Under the pieces are notes generated by a model, which ran no database searches, was not told the DNA's origin, and saw nothing but the letters and a program-made list of their open reading frames with translations. A stretch of DNA of 36,130 nt from a virus: IMG/VR virus record IMGVR_UViG_3300011253_000543, positions 1 through 36,130 of that record; one strand, written 5' to 3'. Within the stretch, counting starts at the first letter, position 1; each line of letters opens with the position of its first letter. A program made the translations under genes and the position numbers. Positions 4,022 to 19,629 of the stretch are shown here, in pieces.

Positions 4022-4810
4022 TTATCCTACTGCAATAGCTAGTGCTAAAATATCATCAGCAGTTGCAAGTGATATACCACCAGCAACAACAGAGTTAGCA
4101 GTTAAAATACCTTGACTAGAAATTGTTGCCATAGTCGTATTTGCTCTGTTTGCGATCCTTAATTTAGAATCGCCAGTGTTATCTGCCAACTGAATCGTTA
4201 AATCTGCATCACCAGTCGAACCTTCTGCATTTAAGAACACATCAATCTTATCAGCATCGCTTGCACCGCCACGAAATCTCAACTGTGGAGTATCACCATT
4301 ATCACTAAATGTAGAGTTTGCTGAAGATAATATTATGTGAGCAGAGTTCGATGAAAGATCAGTAACATCCCTCAACGTGAAAGATTTAAAGTCTACCTCA
4401 TTCGTACCACCAAATCGTAAGAACTGACCCTTCGTTCCACCAGTAAGTCTCCATCGAGAAATGTCACCAAAGGTTACACGGTCTGTTCCTGCGGAATTAA
4501 ATACCACATTGCCATGAAACGTAGTGTTTGCATAAACCTGAACCGCTGAAGCATTAACTGAAAGGTTCGACTTTAATGTCAGCAAAGATGACGCAGTAGT
4601 AGTGTTTCCTGCTCTAAGAGTGTTTGTTCTCAGATCAGTGGCAGAAAACACGCCTGTTATATGCGCATTACCTAGTGAGTCTCCGTTGCGACCATCTGGA
4701 CCTTTTACCGTTACAGCATTGTTTGCTATGATAGTTGCGAGTAGATTGGTGTTTAGACGCCAAGTATTAAATGAGTCCGCAAGATTAGTATTTGATACAG
4801 TTATTGTCAT
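4022..4810 (-). CDS. Tail fibre-like structural protein
   Basis: 262 residues, MTITVSNTNLADSFNTWRLN. N-terminal SFNTWRLNTNLLA is a motif I associate with marine T4-like phage structural proteins. The body is beta-repeat-like (SLLTLKSNLSVNASAVQVY, then TTFHGNVVFNSAGTDRVTFG), as in fibre shafts. There is no S74 domain or other enzyme. The gene starts 2 nt after the stop of the 71-residue gene. Likely a fibre or baseplate-attached structural protein; the binding partner is unknown. Confidence 0.6.
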   Translation of the reverse strand: MTITVSNTNLADSFNTWRLNTNLLATIIANNAVTVKGPDGRNGDSLGNAHITGVFSATDLRTNTLRAGNTTTASSLLTLKSNLSVNASAVQVYANTTFHGNVVFNSAGTDRVTFGDISRWRLTGGTKGQFLRFGGTNEVDFKSFTLRDVTDLSSNSAHIILSSANSTFSDNGDTPQLRFRGGASDADKIDVFLNAEGSTGDADLTIQLADNTGDSKLRIANRANTTMATISSQGILTANSVVAGGISLATADDILALAIAVG

Positions 4811-4812
4811 AT

Positions 4813-5028
4813 TTAATCTCTATTTACAAGTTTATGTAACAAGGTTTTTATTTCAGACATATCGTGTTTCATCTGTTCAAACTCTTGCCTCATTTGTCTA
4901 TCTTTTTCTCTCTTTGCTCGATACTTTTGTAAAGAACTTAGATCTTTATTCAACACAGCACCATTTTTAGTATCACGAATAAGTGCATCTTCATTTTCTA
5001 TTGGTGCAAATTCAGGTTTCTGTTCCAT
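4813..5028 (-). CDS. Small coiled-coil protein
   Basis: 71 residues. The N-terminal half (MEQKPEFAPIENEDALIRDT) is extended and polar. The C-terminal half is strongly helical and charged (KYRAKREKDRQMRQEFEQMK, then MSEIKTLLHKLV) and likely a coiled coil. The start overlaps the gp10-like stop by one base (TAATG), so it is translated with the large baseplate protein. It could be an assembly partner of that protein. No named family recognised. Confidence 0.55.
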   Translation of the reverse strand: MEQKPEFAPIENEDALIRDTKNGAVLNKDLSSLQKYRAKREKDRQMRQEFEQMKHDMSEIKTLLHKLVNRD

Positions 5029-8000
5029 TATTTTTGTAATGCTATCGCTCTAATATTTTCAACTTTAGGAGTAATATGTGTCCCAGTTGCAGTCATAACA
5101 ATCTTCAGTGCGAATGTCTTATAGGTATGGTAAACTGAACCGTCTGTTCCACGATACGCTACAACATTGCTGTTAGCACTATTTAGTCTCGCGTGATTAT
5201 TTGCTCCTGCTAAGAAGTTTTGACCATTAGTGTTCGCAGAGAAACCAAACTCAAACTCTTTAATATCTGTTCCATCAATACCAGAAGAGAAAGTATTTGA
5301 AGAAGTTACTTGAGTCATAAGTGTAAAGTCTTTATCATCAAGTGTTTCTCCATCTTCAGCATTCATTAATCTAGCGTAAACTGATATCTCACTACCTTGC
5401 GGTTTGAACGCATCCATAAATATAGTCATGTCTTCAGCATCTTGTCCATCTTCTAATGTCACAGGTTTGCTGATGTATCTTGATTGAGCATTACCAAAAG
5501 TCTTTTGCTCGTCAGTCGCGTCATTATTGATAACATTTTCGATAGTTAACATATTAGCACGACTCAAATCAATTTGCGGTGAAACATAATCGTCTGTAGT
5601 AGTCAGTGTTCCTTTTAGAACAAAAGTTTTCTTAGAACCTGTTACCGCACTGAGTGCAGTTTCATTGGACTTTGAGAATATTTTCTTTTCAGCATCAAAG
5701 AAGGTGTTTTCTGTACTCAACTGTATTGACTTATATGTTGGTGATATTACACCAGCACTAGAAGCAGTTCTAACACCCCAGTTTGAAGTAGTATTCGCAT
5801 GAGTAATTTGTGGTATCTTAGGTACAAGTGTGTTCATAACTAGGTTGTCGACGCTTGTAACACGCGCAGACGCTCCTGAACTTTGTCCCCTAACATATCC
5901 ATTAGAGTAACCTCCCGCACTTCCTTCGAGGTGCATCTGCCCTCCTAGACCGTAATAGAAGGATACAGTACCTTGCGCTGTATTAGCAGTGTATGCGGTA
6001 GTGTTACCAACCCATGTAGAACCAACATATAGATTGTTAGTATTACCAGTCGATGTCGCAGAGAATGTGCCGTAGGGGTCAACCTTAACAGTCACTTTAT
6101 CAGTCGTTGCGTTATATCCTACAACCTCACGAATCACACCATTAGCGTATCCTGCGTGTTCAACTGAGTTATTGTTAGCAGCATGTTTAGACTTGAGTAC
6201 CTGACCAACAGTTACTGCTTGATTGTTAGCAAAAGTCAATACTGATTCAGCAATAGTATTTTCGCCAATAACGAAGTTGCTATCAAGTTCGTCGATAGAC
6301 AAGTACTCCATATCTTTCTGCTCAACATATACTGTACCAGTGCTCTTTGTAAACTTAGCACAGTGAATTGTATACTTCATATCCTCATCTTGGAACTGTC
6401 TCCAAGTTGAATCATTTGCTGAAGAGAACAATATACCTGTAGCAGTTTGCTTACTGATCTTGGTATTGGGTAGAAGAACGTCATCACCACCCATCTGAGC
6501 AACCCAAACTTGATACTGATCACTATTACCACCAGGAATAGCAACAAAAGCATACTCCTCTTGATTACTCAAGAACACTAGATTATCAAAAGTAAACGAT
6601 GTTGCAGTAGCACCAGTTGATGAAGTATTGACTGCTGATGCAGCAAGCGTCTTAGATGCAATAACCTCAGTTGTTGGAAATCCGTTTTCCATCTTTCTTA
6701 TCTGTAGCGTGATCGGTAGACTACTATCTTTCTTAGCAAAGAACAGATCAATCTTGTTTACATATGCTCCAGAAGTCAGATCGTCTAGAGTCACAAAGAA
6801 AGATTGTGCTAGTGGATCACCACCCTTATTGTGCGCTAATATATCGTTACCGAAATATGTCTTATTGCCGTCTAGTGTAAAGTTATAAACTTGCAACTCT
6901 TCATCATCAGCAAATACCTCAATTGTTTCAATCTCAGTCCACTCACCAGCAGTATTTAAAATCTTATCACCGATAGCAAGAGTGCCTGCCATATCCATAT
7001 GAGGATAAAGTTCTTTTGTTGTCTCTAGATCATGCGCCTTCCATCCATCCTGAGTCCACAATGGGTGATCAGCAGTAACAAATGCGCCACTACCATTTAT
7101 TCCCATAAGTTGTCTCTGACCAAGTTTTGGTCTAACAAAGTTTAGAACTGTATTATGATGGTTATCTTTTCCGAGTAGCACGTCACCAACTTCAACATCC
7201 TCAATCTTCTTAGTGCTTCCGTCTGACATAGTGACAAGAGTGCCAGCAATAAAGCAACACCCTTGGAATGCCACGCGACGAATAGCAGGTCTTGGTCTTG
7301 GGATAGGTGTAACTGATGTAGTTGTTTGAGTAGTTTGAGTTGTTGTAACTTGAGGAACACGAAGATTAATACTGCGATCTCTTTGTGTTACATCAAGTGC
7401 TTGTGATGTAAAGTCACCATGCGCTGCTGTTGTAATCAGATTAATTTTAGTGATAGGATCGTCAATATCTTGTAGTAAGAATCGCTTTGTACCAACTCTA
7501 AATTTTAGATCATCATCATTTGGTATTCTAAAGTTTCCATAAACTGTACCTGTGCTATCAGTTACAAGGTTTGCACCTTCAACACCAGTAGCAACAAAAC
7601 TTGAGTTTGTTGGAGTTACATAATCAAATACCTTTTCTTTATCAAAGTAGGCAAACACTCTAGTGTTAGGTCTCATTCTAACGCCAGTGAAACGAATCAC
7701 ACGTGAACGCATAAACTCACGGAGCGATACGCTCTCGACTGAGTTTCCTAACGATATCGTTTCAGTAACTGAACCCAAAGTAGACGTCGTTACAGTTCTA
7801 TTGTTAGTCGTAGTTCTAAGTGTTCTATTCGCATTTACACTGGTTGTTGTTTCCCATCCACCAAATGTGGTTCTAACAGGACTTGCTCCTTGAATTCGTA
7901 GAGACTCAAGCACACCATTGAAGAATCCATCAAAGTCAACTTGCAACTCTGGTAATGTTGTCAAATCATTGTCATTGTCCATAGGTGGATCAAGTACAAC

Positions 8001-11000
8001 TTCACCCTCCCAGTTGAACAACAATTCTTGAACACAATTTCTACGCTTAGATGCATATGGTTGTTTCTGAAGTTCTCTGCTTGTATAAGCAAGCGTGATC
8101 ATATCACCTGTTTTGGTGACATTTGCTGTATCCATTGAAGCAGTGTCAACTAATGTTTTACTAATTGGTACAGTGCGTTGCTGGAATCCTGGTCGTAGAT
8201 GCCCTTTGTTTATATCAATCGATGCTTTCAATGCTGGACTTGAAGTATCAGCAAAGTTTAGATTAACAAAGTTATCTACAAAGAATCCATTTTTAAATCG
8301 ATCCGAACCTGCAGCATTGAACACTTGTTTGTTCAGTGTTAGATTTTCTAACAGATTCAACGATGAATAGTATTCCAAACTCTTAACACGACTATCAACA
8401 GCACGCAAGTCTTGCATAGTATAGCGTCTGTTATTATCTAGATCTAGTTTAACTTGTAGATCTGTTCTTGCATACTGCTCAGCAAAGAATGGCGCAAGAG
8501 ATGGGAAAGGTGGAATTGATAATGTCCCAAGTGACATTGATGGCAATGGCGCATCAGGTGTCTTAGGTGACAGATCAGGAACACCCTTCACAACATTAAA
8601 GTTTCCTGCAGGTGTTACTACTATTCTATCTTTTCGTGGCAAGTAAAACTGAATATCTGCTTGGAAGTTCTCATCAGGTGTAGGCATATGTGCGCCATCA
8701 CTGTCGATGCTAAACGCAGTCGAAGCAGCAGGATTAGTAATACTTGGAGTTTGCGTTGCAACACCGTTCGCAGAAGGTGTCACACTATTTGTTTTGATTG
8801 GTCTGAAATCAACACTGTTTCTTAGGTCCCTAACAATACCTGTAGTCGGAGAACGGAATAGTGGTATTTCCTGTGTGGTAATAGCAGTTGTGTTCGCTGT
8901 ATTTGCGTCGTCGATTGGATATGAATCAACACTTAGATATCCAATACCAGCAGAACGATCGCGTCCGAAGAAACTGAACTTGACGAGCAAACCTGAGTTT
9001 GTTATATTGAGACTACTAGTTGCCTTCTTGCGCAAATATGCAGTATCGTAAAATGCGTCTTTTTGTCCGTCATCAAGTTCGAAGTGTGTCGTAACATCTG
9101 TATCTGAAGAACTTACTCCAGTGTTTGATCCTTTGTAAACTGCCTCAATCTTAAATACATCAGAAGTACCAAGTGGCCATGGACCATTTTTGCTTGCGCT
9201 ATGCGATCCAGTATTAAGGTGAACGAACTTGTTTTTGTTTACAGTTTTACTTGTTGGAACTGCAGCACTTCTAAGTCTATTGAAGTACACTGAAGCAGAA
9301 AAAGTTGAAGCAAGGTTTGCTTGCTGCAAGTTAATCGTATGCGAACTTGAAGTAGAGGTAATCGTTCCGTTTGCAGTTGTATCAAAGATATAACCAATAG
9401 GGAATGTTGTTGCATGAGCAGCAGCAGAACCTTGAGTTGCAGTATTTGCTGTTTTGATTACTGTGTCACTGGTGATCTCAGTAATACGCATTGGATCAAG
9501 ACCACCAACTTTAATGAAGTCACCAACTTGATATGCTGTTGTAAATACCGTTGATGAACCTGTTACGGTATTTCCAGACTGAGTAACTGTACCAGTATGA
9601 GGAACAGTAGATACTGTTTCCCTTGCGACTACAATAATATTTCGTTCTTCAGTATTCGATAACGGAGAACCAGTTTCATTCATCGTTTCCGTAGCACCTG
9701 CATGAGCAGTGTTAGCAGTTACAGTAGCAGCACCAGCAGTTGTAAAGTTTACTGTTTTTTCTGTACGATATACAAACTGTGTATCATTAGTACCAGCAGA
9801 GTCGGTATATTTTTTAACTGCTGTTATTCCTGTTGGGAACACCATAGTGTTTAGATTTGGTTCTTGGATCTTAGCACTACCGTTTGTTTCTAAAACGATA
9901 TCTGCCATAGACTTTGGACCAGCAGCATTATTCACATATAGTCCACGAACAGATGAGAATGACTTACCACTGTTCATTTGAACATCGAACAAATATATTC
10001 TAAATTGTGCGTTGTAAGTTCCTGGTGTTCCAGAGTCGTATTGGAAACCACGCACTTTAGCAGTACCGATTTCAGTTCCGCTTACTGCTTGTGCACCTAA
10101 GTTTTCACCTGATATGCCGTGTTGTATTGTATCACGCAAAGAAACTGTTCGTAATCCTTGAAAGTCCCAAGTACCAACAACCTCTTTAACATTTACATAG
10201 TTACCAAACTGTTGACCAACTACTACAGCATCAGAAGTATCAAAGTCAGTTGCTTTGTCTACGTCTAAGAATATCGGAGTAGTAAGTCGTATTTTTTCTC
10301 CATGAACATAAGCAGAACCAGTTTCAATTTCAGCAACAAGTTTATTTGAGTCACCGTTTTCTGCAACAGTATATCTACCAAGTGAGTCTGTTTTCTTCAA
10401 ATGCTCACGAACACGAATATTAAATGGTTCAATGGCAAAGTTACCGCTAGAGTCATACACCCTCTCAGCAACAAACTTACCAAGTGTAGAAAGATTTCTA
10501 TCTAGTGGACGTTCAATAGTTTGTCCATCTATAATTTCCGCAACACGGAAAAACGAAGCAGTGTTAGCAAAACCGAAAGACTTAACAGTAAGAACTGGAT
10601 CAATCTTTAAACGATTAGCACCTGGAGCGGTGAAGTTAGTTGCGCCAGTTGCGTTGTCTAGCAATGTTTGATCAGCATTAGAATCTATAATTGATTCTGA
10701 TGTAGTAAAACCAATATAAGCATTTGGTTGCGGATCAAACTTACTTACGATGATACTTTGATCAGCAAATCTAACGAAGTTTTCTTTATGGTATAGAATA
10801 CCATCTTGAATGTTTGCCTTTAGACCGAAACCAGTTGCACTAGAAGATATTGCGTTTGCTGCAACTATGAATGCGTTGTCAGATGATTGGCGTAATATAA
10901 GTGTTTCACCATCAGCAAACTCTTTAGTTGTGCTGTTCGTTCCAGAATTAGTATAATGAACATGAAGTGTGAAATTATCAGGTGCTGCTGCCTCAGAACC

Positions 11001-11369
11001 AGTGGTAGCAAATACAAGTTTACCAGTAACGCCACTGGTAACACCAGTGATTACTGCATTCGCAATCTTTGTATTACCACTATCAGAGAAAAAGTCTGAT
11101 ATTGCTATAACACGATTGTTAGCATCTTTGTCTCTCAATTTGACATATGCTATTTCTTGAGTCGTAAGTCCACCGCCAGTAACTATAATGCCATCGATGT
11201 AAACTTCGTCAGCAAGTCTACCTAATTGGTTTTGTAGTATAGACTGGAGTTGCGTCAGTTCTCTTGCTTGAACTGCAAATCCTGGCCTGAACAAAACTCG
11301 ATGAAAATTCTTATCTTCATCGAAATCATCGAAATATGGACTTTGATTGAGATTTGTTTCAATGCTCAT
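5028..11369 (-). CDS. Giant gp10-like baseplate/fibre protein with DUF4815 start and Hint insertion
   Basis: 2113 residues, the largest gene here. The N-terminus (NLNQSPYFDDFDEDKNFHRV, then PGFAVQARELTQLQSILQNQ) is the DUF4815 segment found in large T4-like marine phage structural proteins. It follows gp8 as gp10 follows gp8 and gp9 in T4. The middle is long and beta-rich. Residues 1372-1514 form a Hint domain (separate entry). The flanking sequence GGDPLAQSFFVTLDDLTSGA, then KIDLFFAKKD, belongs to the structural protein itself. The C-terminus ends VENIRAIALQK. It probably links the baseplate rim to fibres. Symbol not given because gp10 orthology is by position, not by close sequence. Confidence 0.75.
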   Translation of the reverse strand: MSIETNLNQSPYFDDFDEDKNFHRVLFRPGFAVQARELTQLQSILQNQLGRLADEVYIDGIIVTGGGLTTQEIAYVKLRDKDANNRVIAISDFFSDSGNTKIANAVITGVTSGVTGKLVFATTGSEAAAPDNFTLHVHYTNSGTNSTTKEFADGETLILRQSSDNAFIVAANAISSSATGFGLKANIQDGILYHKENFVRFADQSIIVSKFDPQPNAYIGFTTSESIIDSNADQTLLDNATGATNFTAPGANRLKIDPVLTVKSFGFANTASFFRVAEIIDGQTIERPLDRNLSTLGKFVAERVYDSSGNFAIEPFNIRVREHLKKTDSLGRYTVAENGDSNKLVAEIETGSAYVHGEKIRLTTPIFLDVDKATDFDTSDAVVVGQQFGNYVNVKEVVGTWDFQGLRTVSLRDTIQHGISGENLGAQAVSGTEIGTAKVRGFQYDSGTPGTYNAQFRIYLFDVQMNSGKSFSSVRGLYVNNAAGPKSMADIVLETNGSAKIQEPNLNTMVFPTGITAVKKYTDSAGTNDTQFVYRTEKTVNFTTAGAATVTANTAHAGATETMNETGSPLSNTEERNIIVVARETVSTVPHTGTVTQSGNTVTGSSTVFTTAYQVGDFIKVGGLDPMRITEITSDTVIKTANTATQGSAAAHATTFPIGYIFDTTANGTITSTSSSHTINLQQANLASTFSASVYFNRLRSAAVPTSKTVNKNKFVHLNTGSHSASKNGPWPLGTSDVFKIEAVYKGSNTGVSSSDTDVTTHFELDDGQKDAFYDTAYLRKKATSSLNITNSGLLVKFSFFGRDRSAGIGYLSVDSYPIDDANTANTTAITTQEIPLFRSPTTGIVRDLRNSVDFRPIKTNSVTPSANGVATQTPSITNPAASTAFSIDSDGAHMPTPDENFQADIQFYLPRKDRIVVTPAGNFNVVKGVPDLSPKTPDAPLPSMSLGTLSIPPFPSLAPFFAEQYARTDLQVKLDLDNNRRYTMQDLRAVDSRVKSLEYYSSLNLLENLTLNKQVFNAAGSDRFKNGFFVDNFVNLNFADTSSPALKASIDINKGHLRPGFQQRTVPISKTLVDTASMDTANVTKTGDMITLAYTSRELQKQPYASKRRNCVQELLFNWEGEVVLDPPMDNDNDLTTLPELQVDFDGFFNGVLESLRIQGASPVRTTFGGWETTTSVNANRTLRTTTNNRTVTTSTLGSVTETISLGNSVESVSLREFMRSRVIRFTGVRMRPNTRVFAYFDKEKVFDYVTPTNSSFVATGVEGANLVTDSTGTVYGNFRIPNDDDLKFRVGTKRFLLQDIDDPITKINLITTAAHGDFTSQALDVTQRDRSINLRVPQVTTTQTTQTTTSVTPIPRPRPAIRRVAFQGCCFIAGTLVTMSDGSTKKIEDVEVGDVLLGKDNHHNTVLNFVRPKLGQRQLMGINGSGAFVTADHPLWTQDGWKAHDLETTKELYPHMDMAGTLAIGDKILNTAGEWTEIETIEVFADDEELQVYNFTLDGNKTYFGNDILAHNKGGDPLAQSFFVTLDDLTSGAYVNKIDLFFAKKDSSLPITLQIRKMENGFPTTEVIASKTLAASAVNTSSTGATATSFTFDNLVFLSNQEEYAFVAIPGGNSDQYQVWVAQMGGDDVLLPNTKISKQTATGILFSSANDSTWRQFQDEDMKYTIHCAKFTKSTGTVYVEQKDMEYLSIDELDSNFVIGENTIAESVLTFANNQAVTVGQVLKSKHAANNNSVEHAGYANGVIREVVGYNATTDKVTVKVDPYGTFSATSTGNTNNLYVGSTWVGNTTAYTANTAQGTVSFYYGLGGQMHLEGSAGGYSNGYVRGQSSGASARVTSVDNLVMNTLVPKIPQITHANTTSNWGVRTASSAGVISPTYKSIQLSTENTFFDAEKKIFSKSNETALSAVTGSKKTFVLKGTLTTTDDYVSPQIDLSRANMLTIENVINNDATDEQKTFGNAQSRYISKPVTLEDGQDAEDMTIFMDAFKPQGSEISVYARLMNAEDGETLDDKDFTLMTQVTSSNTFSSGIDGTDIKEFEFGFSANTNGQNFLAGANNHARLNSANSNVVAYRGTDGSVYHTYKTFALKIVMTATGTHITPKVENIRAIALQK
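6828..7256 (-). other. Hint (intein-like) domain inside the gp10-like protein
   Basis: Residues C1372 to N1514, 143 residues. Block A: CFIAGTLVTMSDGSTKKIED, then VGDVLL. Block B: VTADHPLW, with the T-x-x-H of inteins. The end is YFGNDILAHN with the terminal His-Asn pair. The core size leaves no room for a homing endonuclease. The residue before it is also Cys (C1371). The residue after the Asn is Lys, not the Cys/Ser/Thr needed for standard splicing, as in bacterial intein-like domains that cleave or splice by alternative chemistry. Confidence 0.85.
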
Positions 11370-11380
11370 TTATTTTACCT

Positions 11381-13183
11381 TTAGAAATCTAATATGATTT
11401 TTATATCTTCAACTTGATCAGGATCTCGCAATACTGCCTGAACATTTTCGGTGTAAAGTATTTCACCAGAATAAGTATTTGCTTCTGGACCTTGCACATC
11501 TGATATTGTTGCTATTTCTGTCTCACCTGTGCTTTTAAGTATAACGTCATTATCTAAAAATGCTGCATATCCATTATAACTTTCTACATTATTTATATAC
11601 ATAGAATAGATAGAATTATCAGTCTCATCCTCTGCATCACGAATAAATGTTACCGTTGCATTTGCTGCACGTAAAGCATTAGTAAGACCAGCAGTATTTC
11701 TTTCACTTGGTCCTAATTCTGTAACAAACTCTAGTGCGCCTGATTTTGCTACATCTAATAATCGTTTATTTGTAATTACATCATTAACTGCAAAAGCATT
11801 AACTGGAGTAGAACCATCCATTTGTGAATATGCAACTTTTAGTTTGGTTGACATTCTTAATGTTGTTGGTGCGTTTGATGTGTTAGCAACCTTTTCTACT
11901 GCGATTGGTGCGTTTGCTGAATCAACCTTCAACATAGGATTTTTAAATACGCTAATTGTTCTAAACTCAGTGTTTGAAGGAATGTAACCTTTACCGTTTA
12001 CCGATGTTCCTAAATTATCATCTAACTGAATATTGATCATAACTTTGTCTGATCCAAGTTCACGAACAGGATTTCTTCCATGACCTCCAGGGAATGTCAT
12101 GACTGCATTAGCAGTTGCTCCTGAACCATGAATAGAGTTAGCAGTAATATATGCTCTAGCAGTCGTAAATCCTGATCCCCTTGATATTACACTGATGCCA
12201 GAAACAGAACCAATAGAAGTATTTACAGTACAATATGCCTTTGCACCAGAACCATCACCGACAATCGTAAGAGTTGGTGAAATAACAACACGTGAATCAG
12301 TATTCGGTGTTGTAGCAAAAGCAGTGTTAACAGTCAATGTTCTTGTTGAACCGCTATAATCAATGATTCTACGCAACTGACCAGAACCTGTTCCACTTGA
12401 TATGTAAATCGATGAACCATTGTAAAAGTTATCTATAGAAGATGCTCCTGTTGCAGCAGCAGTCGATAAGGAAAGTGATATCTTACCACCAGCACTTACC
12501 ACACCATTCGCCACTGTTTCATATCCTGAACCGACATTTACCGTCTCAACAATCTCAATCGCGCCATTTACTGATGCATTTTGAACTGCTAATTGTCGGT
12601 CTACCTCAGCAGTTCCGTCGGCTGTTGTAAGTTTTCTAACAGGCATATATGAAGTTGTTAGGAACTTGTTTGCTAATCCAAGAGGGATTGTGTACAAATA
12701 CTTCCAAACATACCCGTCAGAGGTCTCAAACGCAAGCGTAGAGAATCCTGTCGGTTTAACCGTAGAAGTAGCACCTTTATTATTAAAGAGGCATGTGTAG
12801 ACGTTGAGTTGGTCTGTAAGGACATACCATGCACGATCATACATATCTTCATCAGTATCGCGCCACATTGAATAAACTGTTCCTGACGTCCAGTTGTAAC
12901 GAGTAGTTACAGAACATATATCAGTTGTTCCAACTTTTTTAGCACCAAACATTTCTCGATGCGTTTGGTAGTTTAAACTTTGTGTATTTTCTTCAACAAA
13001 GTCTGGATTTGGTTCGTTTGTCCAATTTTCTGTTCTACCTATACCAACATAAAGTATAGTAGAGTTTTTTACAGTGCTGGTGTCATCATTGAAATCACCA
13101 GAAGCGATGGTAGCATCTTCAATAAATGCCTCAGCATTATTGATTGACAATTCTTTTGTAGGGTATCTATAAACTGTTGTCAT
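11381..13183 (-). CDS. 8: Baseplate wedge subunit gp8-like
   Basis: 600 residues, longer than T4 gp8 (334). The N-terminus has the gp8 signature of marine T4-like phages: YVGIGRTENWTNEPNP, then REMFGAKKVG, CSVTTRYNWTSGTVY, MYDRAWYVLTDQLNVYTCLF and DGYVWKYLYTIP. The remainder adds beta-rich segments with GSGSGQLRR-like and GRNPVRELG motifs. In T4 gp8 joins gp10, gp7, gp6 and gp53 in the wedge. The gene overlaps gp7 by one base and lies 11 nt upstream of the gp10-like gene. Extra length is typical of the marine group and may replace other T4 wedge parts. Confidence 0.85.
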   Translation of the reverse strand: MTTVYRYPTKELSINNAEAFIEDATIASGDFNDDTSTVKNSTILYVGIGRTENWTNEPNPDFVEENTQSLNYQTHREMFGAKKVGTTDICSVTTRYNWTSGTVYSMWRDTDEDMYDRAWYVLTDQLNVYTCLFNNKGATSTVKPTGFSTLAFETSDGYVWKYLYTIPLGLANKFLTTSYMPVRKLTTADGTAEVDRQLAVQNASVNGAIEIVETVNVGSGYETVANGVVSAGGKISLSLSTAAATGASSIDNFYNGSSIYISSGTGSGQLRRIIDYSGSTRTLTVNTAFATTPNTDSRVVISPTLTIVGDGSGAKAYCTVNTSIGSVSGISVISRGSGFTTARAYITANSIHGSGATANAVMTFPGGHGRNPVRELGSDKVMINIQLDDNLGTSVNGKGYIPSNTEFRTISVFKNPMLKVDSANAPIAVEKVANTSNAPTTLRMSTKLKVAYSQMDGSTPVNAFAVNDVITNKRLLDVAKSGALEFVTELGPSERNTAGLTNALRAANATVTFIRDAEDETDNSIYSMYINNVESYNGYAAFLDNDVILKSTGETEIATISDVQGPEANTYSGEILYTENVQAVLRDPDQVEDIKIILDF

Positions 13184-15996
13184 TATGTGACCTGATAGTA
13201 AATATTAGCACTACTTGCCGAAGTTGTATAGTACAAATTGGCAGTAGTAATGTTTGAATTTGACCACGCTGTAGTGGTATTTGCAAAAGTTGTATTCGTT
13301 ACCTTATTTAGTCTCATCGTATAGAAAGTAGATGGGGCGATAGCAATAATTATTTCGCCACCATTAGCATAATGTGATGTCAATGAAGTGCCAGTTCCTG
13401 TTATATTGAAACTGTTTTGCGCCACAGCAATTGTTCCATTTGCTTTCTCTCTTCTCTTACTTTCGCTTACTGTAGCAACATTTAAAAATACGTTAGATTG
13501 TAATCTGTATTTACCGAACAGTGCTTGACCTGCAGGGTGAACAAGTTTAAGTGCGATATCTCTATATCGTGCCAAAGCAACAGGTGCTATAATTTCATAT
13601 GAGAACTCTTGATAGAATCTACTGTCTTGTATTATACCGCGAGAAGTAGACAAGTGACTCTTTGAAGAAGAATAATATCCTTCTGAGTTTGCAGCACCTG
13701 ATAGTGTAACGACGCCAGTTGATTCTTCTGCCAACGCACGACCAGATGAAGCAATCGTTACAGTTTCTCCATCTTCATAATTAAATCCTGAGTCAGACAC
13801 CTTTACAGAAACAACAGATCCATTTGCTCCAATTGTAGGAGTGATTACCGCATTATCACCAAGCGTTCCATTATTTGTTAATAACACAAGTGTTGCAGTT
13901 CCATCATTAGTTTTTGTTCTAGTATCTCTCGAAGAACCACCTTGTGTATATGATCCAGCATAAGTTTCTATTTGAACTGCTGCGTTATTAGCAAAGTTTG
14001 CAATCACACCTAACTCTTGCCATACTCTGACTGAGGTTTCGTAGGTGTTGTTAGCAAGTTGAGTAACTTTGATAATCTCACCTGCTGTGTTAGAACCCAT
14101 AACGTATGCTTGTGCGCCAGTGCTTGCCTGAACTATTTTATCACCAGCAGATAGAACTGTAAAGTTTGAGTTTCCAGTTGAAAAATTTACGTTATTATTA
14201 TGTAATCTAAGAGTGAACTGTTTTATTTCTAGCGAAGAAACATCATTGTCCTTCAAAGTGACTGTTGGTGATGTACGGTATCCTGATCCTGCGTTTACAG
14301 TAGATAGTGATTGTACAGTTCCGATGCTATATGACTTGAACGTAAAAGAATCTGCGAGTCGAGTATGAACATCTTCAGTTTCAACATTCGATGTTCTATT
14401 TTTAGCAACACCCACCACCGTAGCGGAACCAACCTTACGAATATTCTCGTTATTTGCAAATGCTTTTATCGGTCCACTTGAAAACTGACTTGTTAGATTT
14501 GAAGTAGAGTTTGCTGATAAGTGAACAAAGGTGTTTGCTAATGTTGTGCCGATTACTTTAGTTACAGTTCCAAACGCTTTAGAAGTAACACCAACCAACT
14601 CATCACCAACAGAAATAGTAAACGTGTTTGCGATAGTCAATACATGACTGCCGAAAGTGTTTGCTGAGTATGATGTCACATTTCCAACAGTAACTGCACT
14701 AGCACCTGAATTGAAATTCATATTCAAACCTTCAAGTGCGGTAAACTTTTTGTATCCAGTAACTTTTAGATATGCGTTGCCAGCAGTACCACTGATAATA
14801 GACTGAACCGTTGCATTTGCTAATGAACTATTTCCAAATAAGGAAGCACCAACAGCTATTGCCTTTGTATTGGCAACACGCAATACAGAGTTAGCATATT
14901 CGTGATAGTCTGATCCACTTGGGATTCCATCAACTGTTACTTCTGGGAATCCATATCGAGGTGCAGCAATAATGGTATTAGCAAACCGACTCATACGTCT
15001 TGGTTTGCTGTCGGTATTCGTTATACGTGGCGCAAGAGTAGAAAACTGCGTGAAGTTGTTTATTTTATTGCTGTTAATGAATAACGCGAAAGAGTTTGTC
15101 AGGTCTGTTGAATTAACAGAAAATGTTGCATCAGTTCCAAGACCACCTGTAATAGTAACCTCACTTCCAGGTGATGACGTAGTTGTTCTATAACCAGAAC
15201 CACCTTCGGTAATGGTAAATGTCAACGCACCATTTAGTTGCTCAACATTTGTTACAATAACTTTACCAAATAGACCTGTTTTGTTAGAAACTAAATCAAC
15301 CACATCTCCTGCTTGATATCTCGCACCACCTGTAGATATTGTAATCGTACTGATGCCAGCATTAATAACTGGAGTTTGTCCATTTGAGTTGGTGTCAGTG
15401 GAAAGTCTAATGTTCTCCAAATTACCAAATGTGCCAATGATATTAGACAAAAGAATCTGCATAATATCTTTGCTATTAATTCTTCTGCGAATAATATCTT
15501 CTACTAGAGCAGTTGCGCCTGATTCTACACCAACTATTTCTTGACCAATTAAAGAATAGTTTGCGTCATCATATTGAGCTGTGACATAACGATCTATAAC
15601 CCAATCACCATCAGAAACAATCAATATCTGATCAGCAGGTAGATTGAGATCAATATCCTCACCAAACACTGCACGGAACATTAACTTATATGCTTCGAAT
15701 GTCCCTCGCGACTCGTTGAAATACTTTACATTTTTGACTGCAAGTTTCTTGTCTGCTAATATGCTTGTCGGAACAGAGGGTAAAAATGTTTTGGTGAAGT
15801 AATCAATGAAGTCGTTTGTTGTGGTGCTTATATCACGATATGATTCTAAATTACGAATCCCATCGGTCATCTGACCTGTAGTTTCCATCCAAGCATAATA
15901 TGCTTCTATGAACTGAAGAAAGTTTGCGCCATCTTCTTTATAGAATGATGGAAACTGAGATGCTACCAGTTTCGATATTTTGTCATTGACTGCCAT
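13183..15996 (-). CDS. 7: Baseplate wedge protein gp7-like
   Basis: 937 residues, close to T4 gp7 (1032). The N-terminus KISKLVASQFPSFYKEDG, then FIEAYYAWMETTGQ, and YFNESRGTFEAYKLMFRAVF match the first domain of gp7-like wedge proteins of marine T4-like phages. The rest alternates beta-rich repeats with GSGYRT motifs (GGSGYRTTTS near 265, NAGSGYRTSPTVTL near 573). It lies between gp6 and gp8 with one-base overlaps on each side, the T4 order 6-7-8. Assignment is by N-terminal motif plus synteny. Confidence 0.8.
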   Translation of the reverse strand: MAVNDKISKLVASQFPSFYKEDGANFLQFIEAYYAWMETTGQMTDGIRNLESYRDISTTTNDFIDYFTKTFLPSVPTSILADKKLAVKNVKYFNESRGTFEAYKLMFRAVFGEDIDLNLPADQILIVSDGDWVIDRYVTAQYDDANYSLIGQEIVGVESGATALVEDIIRRRINSKDIMQILLSNIIGTFGNLENIRLSTDTNSNGQTPVINAGISTITISTGGARYQAGDVVDLVSNKTGLFGKVIVTNVEQLNGALTFTITEGGSGYRTTTSSPGSEVTITGGLGTDATFSVNSTDLTNSFALFINSNKINNFTQFSTLAPRITNTDSKPRRMSRFANTIIAAPRYGFPEVTVDGIPSGSDYHEYANSVLRVANTKAIAVGASLFGNSSLANATVQSIISGTAGNAYLKVTGYKKFTALEGLNMNFNSGASAVTVGNVTSYSANTFGSHVLTIANTFTISVGDELVGVTSKAFGTVTKVIGTTLANTFVHLSANSTSNLTSQFSSGPIKAFANNENIRKVGSATVVGVAKNRTSNVETEDVHTRLADSFTFKSYSIGTVQSLSTVNAGSGYRTSPTVTLKDNDVSSLEIKQFTLRLHNNNVNFSTGNSNFTVLSAGDKIVQASTGAQAYVMGSNTAGEIIKVTQLANNTYETSVRVWQELGVIANFANNAAVQIETYAGSYTQGGSSRDTRTKTNDGTATLVLLTNNGTLGDNAVITPTIGANGSVVSVKVSDSGFNYEDGETVTIASSGRALAEESTGVVTLSGAANSEGYYSSSKSHLSTSRGIIQDSRFYQEFSYEIIAPVALARYRDIALKLVHPAGQALFGKYRLQSNVFLNVATVSESKRREKANGTIAVAQNSFNITGTGTSLTSHYANGGEIIIAIAPSTFYTMRLNKVTNTTFANTTTAWSNSNITTANLYYTTSASSANIYYQVT

Positions 15997-17765
15997 TATT
16001 CAAACTCGCTGATTGCTGTTACAACTGCATCAACAGATTGCATGATTAGTATCTGTTCCCTAAGTGGTGTAACATCTAAAGTATCTGGTGTAGCGTTTAT
16101 CTTTAGTTGTGTTCCAACGATGCTACTTACATTGAAGTTAGACAATGTAATCTTACCAGTTGTGTAGTTTATTGTTCCAACATTAGAGTTTTGTATAACC
16201 TTCGTATTCGTGTCATCAAACCGATAAATTCTCACCGTACCTAATCCATCGTCATCCAAGAAACAATTAAATGTTTCAAATACAAACTGAGTAGAAGATA
16301 GTGTAGATGTTCTAATAGGATTATTAAATAGTATATCAATACTTTGCGATATATTTAACAATGGTGATATGCGTTTTTGCATCTGAACCGAAGCATCGGT
16401 ATTTAATACTTCTGCAACAGTTAAATTATCTAAAACACGAACAAACCGCGAGAATCTAAATCGTTTATCAAACTGCTCTAAATTATTTGTAGAGAAGTTT
16501 GTAATAGCAGTTAATGCTGCACTTTGAACTTCTGATGTTGTTGCTGTACTTAAAGTTCTGTTGTAAAACACCTTCACAGTTGGTATAATATAGGTGTACT
16601 CTGGATCAATCATCACAGGGTCAACACCTAATGGCGTTCGGTCTGATATAGATGTCTTTATTTGCGCCTTCTTATTGTTAGTAGTCATCAACGCACCAAC
16701 AGGTTTCAACGCAATATACACCTTTCCGTATACTGCTGGATCAGCATCCTCGCCACCAAAAGCAATCACGGATTGTATATCTGCATTTTCAGTAGTAATG
16801 ATTCTTTCGTAATCGTTCTTAACGATAGCACGGTTTTGTGTTTGGAAGTTTCGTGGCGCATTAAATTTAATTGATTCTATAGCCTCTTGAGTGTTGCCAC
16901 CAGATGATGCTTTGTTGGTTGTGACAGCAACTGAAGTGTATGACACACCAAGATTTAAATTGTCAACCGTAAATGTTTTTGCTCCATTTGTGTCTTTAGC
17001 GTTACAAACCAAATATTCAATGATAACTATATTACCATTCTTTACAGGTTTGCCTAAAGTTCCTGGACTAAATACCACCTCATATTTTTTATCTGCAGAT
17101 TCCTCTAAGAAGTAAACTGCTGAAGTGCCTGTTATCTGTTTGGTATTGGTTGCACGTATGTATTCTGTAGTGGTCGTATCTGATGCAGACTCTTGCACTG
17201 TGACTTTAATGCTTGACGTATCAACATTAACATTCGGTATAATGTATCGCTCTGGGTTCGATGCGCTTACAGTGAACCTGTGAGTGAGCGGTGTGCCTTC
17301 TTTGATAATTAGTGAAGTGCTGAATGTATTACTTACATTTACAACAGTCTTTGCTGTAGGAACAACATAGGTATATGAAACATCATCTACCGTAGTGGTA
17401 AAGGTAGCATTACGTGGAATTGTAAACTGCGCATTTGTATTTGCTATACCTGTAAATGTAAGACTGACATTCGCCTGAGCACCAATCGCAGATGAAGGCA
17501 GATACCCAAGTTCCTTAGCACGTGATACAACCGAGTCTCTTTGCTGAGCAGTATCTAAGAACATCTCATTCGCAAGCATATTCAAATAGAATGCATTGTA
17601 ATGAGTATTGTATGCAAGAACATCTAAGAGAGTTGCTAATGCTGAACCCTCAAAGTTATAGTCTTGAAATTGATCTTGTGTACTTAGGTAACTTTTAAGA
17701 TTTGTTCTGATATCATCAAAATCTACTTCAGTTACCTTAAGATATGTATTTGCGCTGGTAGCCAT
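15996..17765 (-). CDS. 6: Baseplate wedge subunit gp6 (Baseplate J family)
   Basis: 589 residues against 660 in T4. The N-terminus is the gp6 signature: LKSYLSTQDQFQDYNFEGSA, then LLDVLAYNTHYNAFYLNM and EMFLDTAQQRDSVVSRAKELGY. Later NFQTQNRAIVKNDYERII and VIAFGGEDADPAVYGKVYIA are the typical Baseplate J core. gp6 forms the inner ring of the baseplate and ties the wedges together around the hub. The gene overlaps gp25 and gp7 by one base each, so the three are probably translated together from the late operon. Confidence 0.92.
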   Translation of the reverse strand: MATSANTYLKVTEVDFDDIRTNLKSYLSTQDQFQDYNFEGSALATLLDVLAYNTHYNAFYLNMLANEMFLDTAQQRDSVVSRAKELGYLPSSAIGAQANVSLTFTGIANTNAQFTIPRNATFTTTVDDVSYTYVVPTAKTVVNVSNTFSTSLIIKEGTPLTHRFTVSASNPERYIIPNVNVDTSSIKVTVQESASDTTTTEYIRATNTKQITGTSAVYFLEESADKKYEVVFSPGTLGKPVKNGNIVIIEYLVCNAKDTNGAKTFTVDNLNLGVSYTSVAVTTNKASSGGNTQEAIESIKFNAPRNFQTQNRAIVKNDYERIITTENADIQSVIAFGGEDADPAVYGKVYIALKPVGALMTTNNKKAQIKTSISDRTPLGVDPVMIDPEYTYIIPTVKVFYNRTLSTATTSEVQSAALTAITNFSTNNLEQFDKRFRFSRFVRVLDNLTVAEVLNTDASVQMQKRISPLLNISQSIDILFNNPIRTSTLSSTQFVFETFNCFLDDDGLGTVRIYRFDDTNTKVIQNSNVGTINYTTGKITLSNFNVSSIVGTQLKINATPDTLDVTPLREQILIMQSVDAVVTAISEFE

Positions 17766-18163
17766 TATCTTACTCTTTCTAGAATAATGCTTAAATTAAT
17801 CGGTTCGTTTGGTCGGTTTTTAATTCGGAAGATAATGGTCGCCTGTAAACGATTACGATCTTGATCTTCTTTCACATTTACTGTTTGCAACAACACACGT
17901 GGTTCGTAGTTCCTTATAACCTCGCCAATCGCATTTTCCATCATTTGTTTAGTTGCAGGTGTAAATAACTCAAACAACAGGTATCTTATTGAACAACCAA
18001 TATTAGGTTTAAATGGTCTTTCGAAAAAATCTGTCAAAACCAATGCCTTTACTGATTGTTTGATTGCTTCATCATCGGTTTTGCGTTGCAGATTTCCAGT
18101 AACTGGATGTGCGTTGAATCCCAGTGCAATATCGCTGAAGAAAGCTGCCTTTGGTTCTGCCAT
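17765..18163 (-). CDS. 25: Baseplate wedge subunit gp25
   Basis: 132 residues, the same length as T4 gp25. GFNAHPVTGNLQRKTDDEAI, then FFERPFKPNIGCSIRYLLFE and AIGEVIRNYEPRVLLQTV are the conserved GPW/gp25 family blocks. gp25 sits at the sheath-baseplate junction and helps start sheath assembly. The gene overlaps gp6 by one base. A likely promoter is the perfect late core TATAAATAG at 18416-18424, with a small gene between. Confidence 0.93.
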   Translation of the reverse strand: MAEPKAAFFSDIALGFNAHPVTGNLQRKTDDEAIKQSVKALVLTDFFERPFKPNIGCSIRYLLFELFTPATKQMMENAIGEVIRNYEPRVLLQTVNVKEDQDRNRLQATIIFRIKNRPNEPINLSIILERVR

Positions 18164-18726: not shown

Positions 18727-19629
18727 TTATGGGTTTAGATTAATATTTGGTCCACCGACAATGGTAATATCACCACCAGCAGTAGTTTGTTGAGTCTTTG
18801 CAAAAGTTTCAGTCACCGTTCCTTGAACAGTTTCTGTTTTATTTCCGTCTACCTTTATATCCCAATTGCCTTTGATGTAAGTAGTGCAGTTCTGATCAAT
18901 CGTTAGATTGCAGTTACCCTTTATGTTTACATCGTTGCCTTTAGCAACAATCATATAGTTTTCTCCAACTACACGTGTTACTTTGGTTCCATCAGGTTGA
19001 ACCTCATAGAATGTACCACTTTTGTGATACTCGTGTATGCGTTCACTGCCTGAAGTATCATCAAACTCTTTAATGTGCCCTGATTCAGTTTCCTTTACAT
19101 GATTGTAAGGATACGTTGCCTTGTATGCTGAAGCAGGTTCACTCCAAGTTCCACCAGTAGCAGTTGTAACATTTGTTGTTCTTCCGCTTTCTTTACTGGC
19201 AAGTACGGCATGAGGTTTATCGCTGTCGTTTCTTGATAGACGGTTTACGTCAGGTTCGTCGACCACCTGCGGATACTTTCCGTTAGGATCGTAGAATCCT
19301 TCCTGAGTATTTGCTAACTCGGAAGGGATAGTAGCAAGTGTTCCCATAACAACAGGTTCTTGCGCACGATCACCATCTAAAAAGAATCCTATAACCCAAG
19401 CACCCTCAACTAATCCTGTCGGTGATATTCCAATGTTATTAGTTTGTGCTGAGTTAATGCTATTCATCGGCATCGCCCAAGGAAGTTTATCCGTTGGAAT
19501 CTGTCCCTTATCTTCTGTATGCCAACCAAAGCATCGTACACGCAGTCGTCCAAGTTTTACAGGATCATTTCTGTCCTCTATAACTCCAACAAACCACGTG
19601 AAACCTTTTCTACCAATAAACTCGCGCAT
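18727..19629 (-). CDS. 5: Baseplate central spike gp5-like, without lysozyme domain
   Basis: 300 residues against 575 in T4. Residues about 10-100 form the OB-fold of gp5/VgrG (TWFVGVIEDRNDPVKLGRLR, then CFGWHTEDK and GAWVIGFFLDGD). A linker follows, and residues about 215-300 hold the repeating beta-helix pattern (DVNIKGNCNLTIDQNC, then IKGNWDIKVDGNKTETVQG). The T4 lysozyme domain normally between them is absent. The spike pierces the outer membrane and carries the PAAR tip. The cell-wall cutting step may have moved to the tape-measure protein, which has a muralytic-like domain. It starts 2 nt after the 59-residue gene. Confidence 0.88.
   Translation of the reverse strand: MREFIGRKGFTWFVGVIEDRNDPVKLGRLRVRCFGWHTEDKGQIPTDKLPWAMPMNSINSAQTNNIGISPTGLVEGAWVIGFFLDGDRAQEPVVMGTLATIPSELANTQEGFYDPNGKYPQVVDEPDVNRLSRNDSDKPHAVLASKESGRTTNVTTATGGTWSEPASAYKATYPYNHVKETESGHIKEFDDTSGSERIHEYHKSGTFYEVQPDGTKVTRVVGENYMIVAKGNDVNIKGNCNLTIDQNCTTYIKGNWDIKVDGNKTETVQGTVTETFAKTQQTTAGGDITIVGGPNINLNP

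Follow-up and report, generated by a model that had tools for sequence, protein, structure and literature searches.

A Hint domain with a basic +1 residue in a giant baseplate protein of uncultured phages

Genomic setting and host protein

We analyzed a viral DNA sequence of 36,130 nucleotides (IMG/VR record IMGVR_UViG_3300011253_000543), referred to here as the window. It encodes a 2113-aa protein that bears a Hint (intein-like) domain (Table 1). A profile match and a baseplate homolog place this protein in the DUF4815 baseplate family. Adjoining it are T4-like baseplate genes, including those for gp8-, gp6- and gp5-like proteins and two more wedge subunits. The predicted structure of the domain that follows the Hint matches residues 791-944 of the phi812 baseplate protein ORF65 (Z 19-21, 32-33% identity), and by sequence ORF65 also matches, from residue 791, the 2113-aa protein from residue 1517. 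A baseplate role is thus well supported. Elsewhere in the window, the tail-fibre gene region contains repeated segments of about 90 bp (positions 2250-2410) with multiple matches to the related loci L002 and L012.

Table 1. Features of the Hint-bearing protein and neighbouring genes; positions are those of the window.
Feature	Position	Strand	Evidence or remarks
DUF4815 baseplate protein, 2113 aa, bearing the Hint domain	5028..11369	-	Pfam DUF4815 3.8e-50; phrog_358 E 0; phi812 ORF65 relative
Downstream beta domain, starts DPLAQSF, residues 1518-1674	6348..6818	-	Homologous to phi812 ORF65 791-944
Lys1515 (+1), then GG-DPLAQSF	6825..6827	-	Lys or Arg throughout copies at the DPLAQ site
Block G His-Asn, H1513-N1514	6828..6833	-	54/54 copies
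Hint (BIL/intein-like) domain, residues 1372-1514, 143 aa	6828..7256	-	Motifs, Pfam, PDB match, AF2 model
Block B TxxH, T1432-A-D-H1435	7065..7076	-	His 54/54; Thr 44, Ser 10
Cys1 (C1372), block A nucleophile, C1372-FIAGT	7254..7256	-	54/54 copies at the DPLAQ site
Disordered Pro/Arg-rich linker, residues 1324-1371, including C1371 at -1	7257..7400	-	AF2 pLDDT <50; Pro enrichment vs Hint-less orthologs
gp8-like baseplate wedge protein, neighbour	11381..13183	-	Profile matches
Baseplate wedge subunit, neighbour	13183..15996	-	Profile matches
gp6-like baseplate wedge protein, neighbour	15996..17765	-	Profile matches
Baseplate wedge subunit, neighbour	17765..18163	-	Profile match
gp5-like hub/lysozyme OB protein	18727..19629	-	Profile match

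Anatomy and fold of the Hint domain

The initial annotation described a Hint/intein-like domain inserted in a giant baseplate protein, and this holds: the domain is intact, the interval runs exactly from C1372 to N1514 of the ORF, and both the Hint fold and DUF4815 were matched. The block A Cys, TxxH, terminal His-Asn and +1 Lys that it listed were all located (Table 1), and its view that ordinary, class 1 splicing would not be expected stands, as the +1 residue is Lys1515. The resemblance to a Hint is not due to chance: the Pfam match to Hom_end_hint (4.3e-8) exceeds the curated cut-off, and the top PDB sequence match is a bacterial intein-like (BIL) domain (2lwy, 1.2e-7). Block A resembles that of PI-SceI. 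An AF2 model of the domain (pLDDT 91) gives Z scores of 13-21 against Hint structures. The closest fold is that of Tetrahymena BIL2, from the BUBL1 locus (Z 20.6, 140 residues, 2.0 Å), and the next best are the gp41-1 intein (Z 16.8) and the Clostridium thermocellum BIL (Z 16.7). No homing endonuclease is present in the 143-aa domain, and a scan of the window identified no further Hints.

The Hint fold with blocks A and B identifies the domain as a member of the Hint superfamily. Its features are those of an A-type BIL domain, with an N-terminal Cys (C1372), a C-terminal His-Asn, and Lys1515 instead of Cys, Ser or Thr at +1. The placement is also typical, with a variable, disordered linker upstream, although the conserved DPLAQ motif comes directly after. 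Cys1, TxxH and His-Asn are shared with class 1 inteins; the Cys, Ser or Thr of that class at +1 is replaced here (Lys1515, and Lys or Arg across the site). Class 2 and 3 inteins lack the N-terminal nucleophile and B-type BIL domains lack block G, and both assignments were rejected given the presence of Cys1 and His-Asn. A Hedgehog (Hog) domain, which has a C-terminal sterol-recognition region and N-terminal chemistry only, was also rejected, because the Hint terminates in His-Asn and the phi812-ORF65-like beta domain comes directly after it. The identical Hint domain occurs in L002, a near twin of the window, which argues against an assembly artefact.

Conservation of the catalytic residues and of a basic +1 residue

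Relatives were collected from viral contigs and from bacterial and archaeal genomes. In an alignment of 55 sequences (22-79% identity to the window), the only invariant columns are Cys1, the block-B His and the terminal His and Asn. Hints directly precede the motif DP(L/V/I)xQ(S/T)F in 38 distinct proteins of uncultured phages. Counting all Hints in these proteins gives 54 copies at the DPLAQ site, every one of which retains the four catalytic residues. The +1 residue is Lys or Arg in all 54 (Arg in about a third). These loci were retrieved with patterns that left out both the four catalytic residues and +1. One extra scan used the pattern HN[KR]C, and its listed DUF4815 carriers were also recovered by a pattern without those residues.

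Beyond this site, Lys or Arg occupies +1 in 87% of 82 non-redundant viral relatives, whereas among the 67 relatives found in bacterial and archaeal genomes the share is 37%. Thus, the Lys at +1 is a feature of the family, and not the one-off oddity that it had appeared to be in the initial annotation. Homologs with mutated Cys, His or Asn, which that annotation had named as evidence against self-processing, are absent among the 54 site copies. Between near-identical copies dN/dS is 0.06-0.17, and this purifying selection indicates that the Hints are kept functional. A decayed intein is ruled out by these ratios and the invariant catalytic residues.

An unprocessed Hint might instead be displayed on the baseplate as a structural or binding module, its catalytic residues being kept for structural reasons. 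In favour of this explanation, the Hint has folded domains on either side and is preceded by a long, flexible, Pro-rich linker, and the number of Hint copies varies. However, it is precisely the catalytic residues that are invariant while the surface diverges, and we consider a displayed module very unlikely.

Insertion site and cassette exchange

An AF2 model of the wider region, of moderate quality only (pLDDT 73, pTM 0.44), has the Hint flanked by a beta domain on each side; a disordered stretch leads into it, and the following domain adjoins it without a linker. In this model pLDDT is below 50 for about residues 1324-1369, a stretch of approximately 46 residues that precedes the Hint. The upstream flank had been taken for continuous structural sequence, but is instead a disordered, low-complexity linker. 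The unprocessed junction sequences of the 2113-aa protein are VAFQGCCFIAGTLVTMSDGSTK and the stretch ILAHNKGGDPLAQSF. The double Cys (1371-1372), earlier thought notable, was rejected as a key feature because the residue at -1 (C1371) varies among carriers: C, S, G, I, A, F, V and others occur there.

Homologs lacking the domain were compared, as proposed at the outset. In these orthologs the chain passes directly into DPLAQ, with nearly no proline upstream, whereas linkers in Hint carriers are of low complexity and often Pro-rich. The mean number of Pro per 30 upstream residues is 4.4 in carriers and 0.1 in Hint-less sequences (Mann-Whitney p 4.5e-4, indicative only as the sequences are related). 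The Hint-less sequences in this linker comparison number ten, and all come without a Hint. The 168 aa that directly follow the Hint have matches in 1446 isolate records. In tblastn searches with natural sequences, no DUF4815 Hint was recognised in a cultured phage among the matches listed, a non-exhaustive set.

Hint cassettes are exchanged between otherwise divergent proteins. The Hint DNA of L140 and L143 is 89% identical while the protein flanks are 42-49% identical, and for L012 and L007 the values are 90% and 60-67%. Conversely, L012 and L002 have flanks that are 94-95% identical but Hints that are only 54% identical, with two copies in L012 and one in L002. The element acts as a cassette that can be swapped at a single fixed location, the boundary preceding DPLAQ. 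Given this exchange and the direct entry of Hint-less orthologs into DPLAQ, the basic +1 residue belongs to the cassette and not to the host protein. The Hint element may be mostly neutral or selfish, and not a device for timing assembly as the initial annotation had suggested.

Tandem arrays

Hint copies occur singly or in tandem, usually with one Lys or Arg between the His-Asn of one copy and the Cys of the next. We identified two copies in L012, L025 and L093, three in L096, and four in L014 and L020. At the DPLAQ site tandem copies number 2 to 4, and elsewhere up to 7; the longest array (seven Hints, L094) is not tied to a DUF4815 host protein. In L098 and L160 the DUF4815 frame is interrupted within or at the Hint array, which may reflect either naturally split Hints or misassembled repeats. 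Two archaeal proteins also have arrays with other spacers: a Thermoplasmata archaeon protein (L191, ORF at 1) has nine tandem Hints with T or TC as the usual spacer, and a Nanoarchaeota protein (L198, ORF at 5350) has four separated by KAG, KG and KC.

Split genes

The N-terminal part of the host protein (N-part) together with the Hint or Hints, and the part after them (C-part), are encoded by separate ORFs in L015, L018, L147, L155, L138, L105 and L017. In L086 and L088 the two halves are separate genes without a Hint. A two-chain state is therefore viable. In L015, L018 and L147 the Hint is followed by a Peptidase S74 domain (the Pfam match was tested for L015). The Peptidase S74 chaperone of endosialidase is a self-processing C-terminal module of phage structural proteins. 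Its fold is unrelated to that of the Hint, and it is absent from the window protein.

Proposed processing

A-type BIL domains are proposed to act via an N-terminal thioester and cyclisation of the terminal Asn, and a free amine can ligate the flanks (PMC4031507). From the anatomy of the domain and this known BIL chemistry, we infer three steps. C1372, aided by T1432 and H1435, would attack the 1371-1372 peptide bond and form a thioester with the N-part. N1514, aided by H1513, would then cyclise and release the C-part, whose new N-terminal residue would be Lys1515. Finally, the amine of the Lys or Arg at +1 would close the thioester, yielding N-part-Lys-GG-DPLAQ and a free 16-kDa Hint; the ligated junction peptide would read VAFQGCK. 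If water wins at the last step, 149- and 65-kDa chains would result. The fragment masses given in the initial annotation were about right: we calculate 149.0 kDa for the N-part, 15.9 kDa for the Hint, 64.6 kDa for the C-part and 213.6 kDa for the spliced form.

Complete self-excision of this A-type BIL-like kind is probable, with re-ligation by the Lys/Arg amine slightly favoured over permanent cleavage. We lean towards complete excision because both ends are kept in every copy, and because of the tandem arrays and cassette exchange. Excision using the +1 amine would best explain the intact ends together with the invariant basic +1 residue. Some observations count against it. Split-gene relatives indicate that an intact chain is not required everywhere. 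At Hints that end a protein as HNK-stop, ligation would append one Lys only. The long flexible upstream linker also exceeds what a clean intein insertion needs.

The strongest rival is self-cleavage at one or both Hint ends without ligation, after which the 149-kDa N-part and 65-kDa C-part would assemble non-covalently. BIL domains without a +1 nucleophile yield mainly cleavage products (PMC7664689; PMC4031507), relatives have the host protein as two genes with or without a Hint, and a cut in the flexible linker would be tolerable. However, plain hydrolysis has no need of an invariant basic +1. Cleavage at one end requires no second intact end, so that the other end and spare array copies could decay, and none of the 54 copies has done so; self-excision is favoured over one-end cleavage for this reason. 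We consider the two-chain outcome rather unlikely overall, although the split-gene relatives keep it plausible.

Cross-linking is highly improbable. Here a lysine side chain, either of Lys+1 or of a neighbouring subunit, would attack the N-part thioester and form an isopeptide bond that fixes baseplate parts, similar to what is reported for Tetrahymena BIL2 and ubiquitin-like domains. The nearest fold, BIL2, is reported to transfer its N-flank to lysine side chains (PMC8616854), Lys is present at +1, and Hints are found at protein C-termini. No acceptor site was identified, and the Arg at +1 in about a third of DPLAQ-site copies, which could not act as an amine side chain, disfavours cross-linking through Lys+1. 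The Lys+1 side chain as sole nucleophile is likewise unlikely, since Arg substitutes for it.

Returning to excision with ligation, it is possible, although doubtful, that Lys/Arg+1 Hints form a distinct splicing class. Closure of the thioester would then depend on the basic +1 in place of a side-chain nucleophile, and would be efficient enough for 2-7 back-to-back domains to remove themselves from one virion protein.

Relation to known systems

The C. thermocellum BIL (2lwy) and the MafB BILs resemble the phage domain in the Hint fold (Z 16.7 for the former), Cys1, block B His and His-Asn, in the absence of Cys, Ser or Thr at +1, and in their position at a domain boundary. Unlike them, the phage site has an invariant Lys or Arg at +1, direct tandem arrays spaced by one residue and a baseplate host protein. 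Tetrahymena thermophila BIL2 (6y75, 6tmm) is the closest structure, also has no +1 nucleophile, and lies between independently folded domains. It differs in having ubiquitin-like flanks and in its reported product, an isopeptide on Lys (PMC8616854); we found no description of single-residue-spaced arrays for it. Class 1 mini-inteins (gp41-1, DnaB, Sce VMA) share blocks A, B and G and the exchange of cassettes at one site. In contrast to these, the phage Hint has neither a Cys, Ser or Thr at +1 nor a homing endonuclease, and is located before a conserved motif and behind a variable linker. The phi812 baseplate ORF65 (9euf, 9eui, 9euj) is a homolog of the host protein, and its residues 791-944 correspond to the post-Hint domain. 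It differs in having no Hint, the preceding strand entering DPLAQ directly.

Inteins are mostly known as single inserts in replication and metabolic enzymes, followed by a fixed Cys, Ser or Thr. The widespread Hint family of uncultured phages departs from these habits in its baseplate host, its strung copies and the basic residue at the nucleophile position, which points to an unusual kind of protein self-processing during virus assembly. The individual features, fold and chemistry are precedented, and the combination looks new. In the literature searched, which covered few subscription journals, we found no description of a baseplate protein that combines a fixed insertion site, cassette exchange, arrays spaced by one residue and an invariant Lys/Arg +1, and no paper on tandem or Lys/Arg+1 Hints in phage virion proteins; this is weak evidence of novelty. 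If active, the family provides dozens of natural sequences for studying splicing without a +1 nucleophile, and a means to ask whether phages use self-processing in building virions. Tandem Hints spaced by one residue could also serve protein engineering.

Hints at protein C-termini

Hints that end a protein as HNK-stop were identified in L046, L053-L056, L072 and L076, and some of the host proteins are unrelated to DUF4815. Among these, L053 (4288-7200) and its relatives L054-L056 encode a phage protein that contains PKD and InlB-like repeats and terminates precisely at Hint-Lys-stop. In the cultured Erwinia phage pEa_SNUABM_22, a collagen-like virion structural protein (L265:1526-2968) has a C-terminal Hint with His-Asn-Thr.

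A second Hint-derived C-terminal module occurs in phage structural or fibre proteins. It retains Cys1, has lost His-Asn, and has an end resembling VNGY..SSM.D.GG. This module was identified in L017 (residues 2180-2306, ORF at 4366), L024, L105, L264 (2054-3007) and L090 (3083-4525), and also in the cultured Providencia phage PSTNGR1 and Achromobacter phage 2-1.
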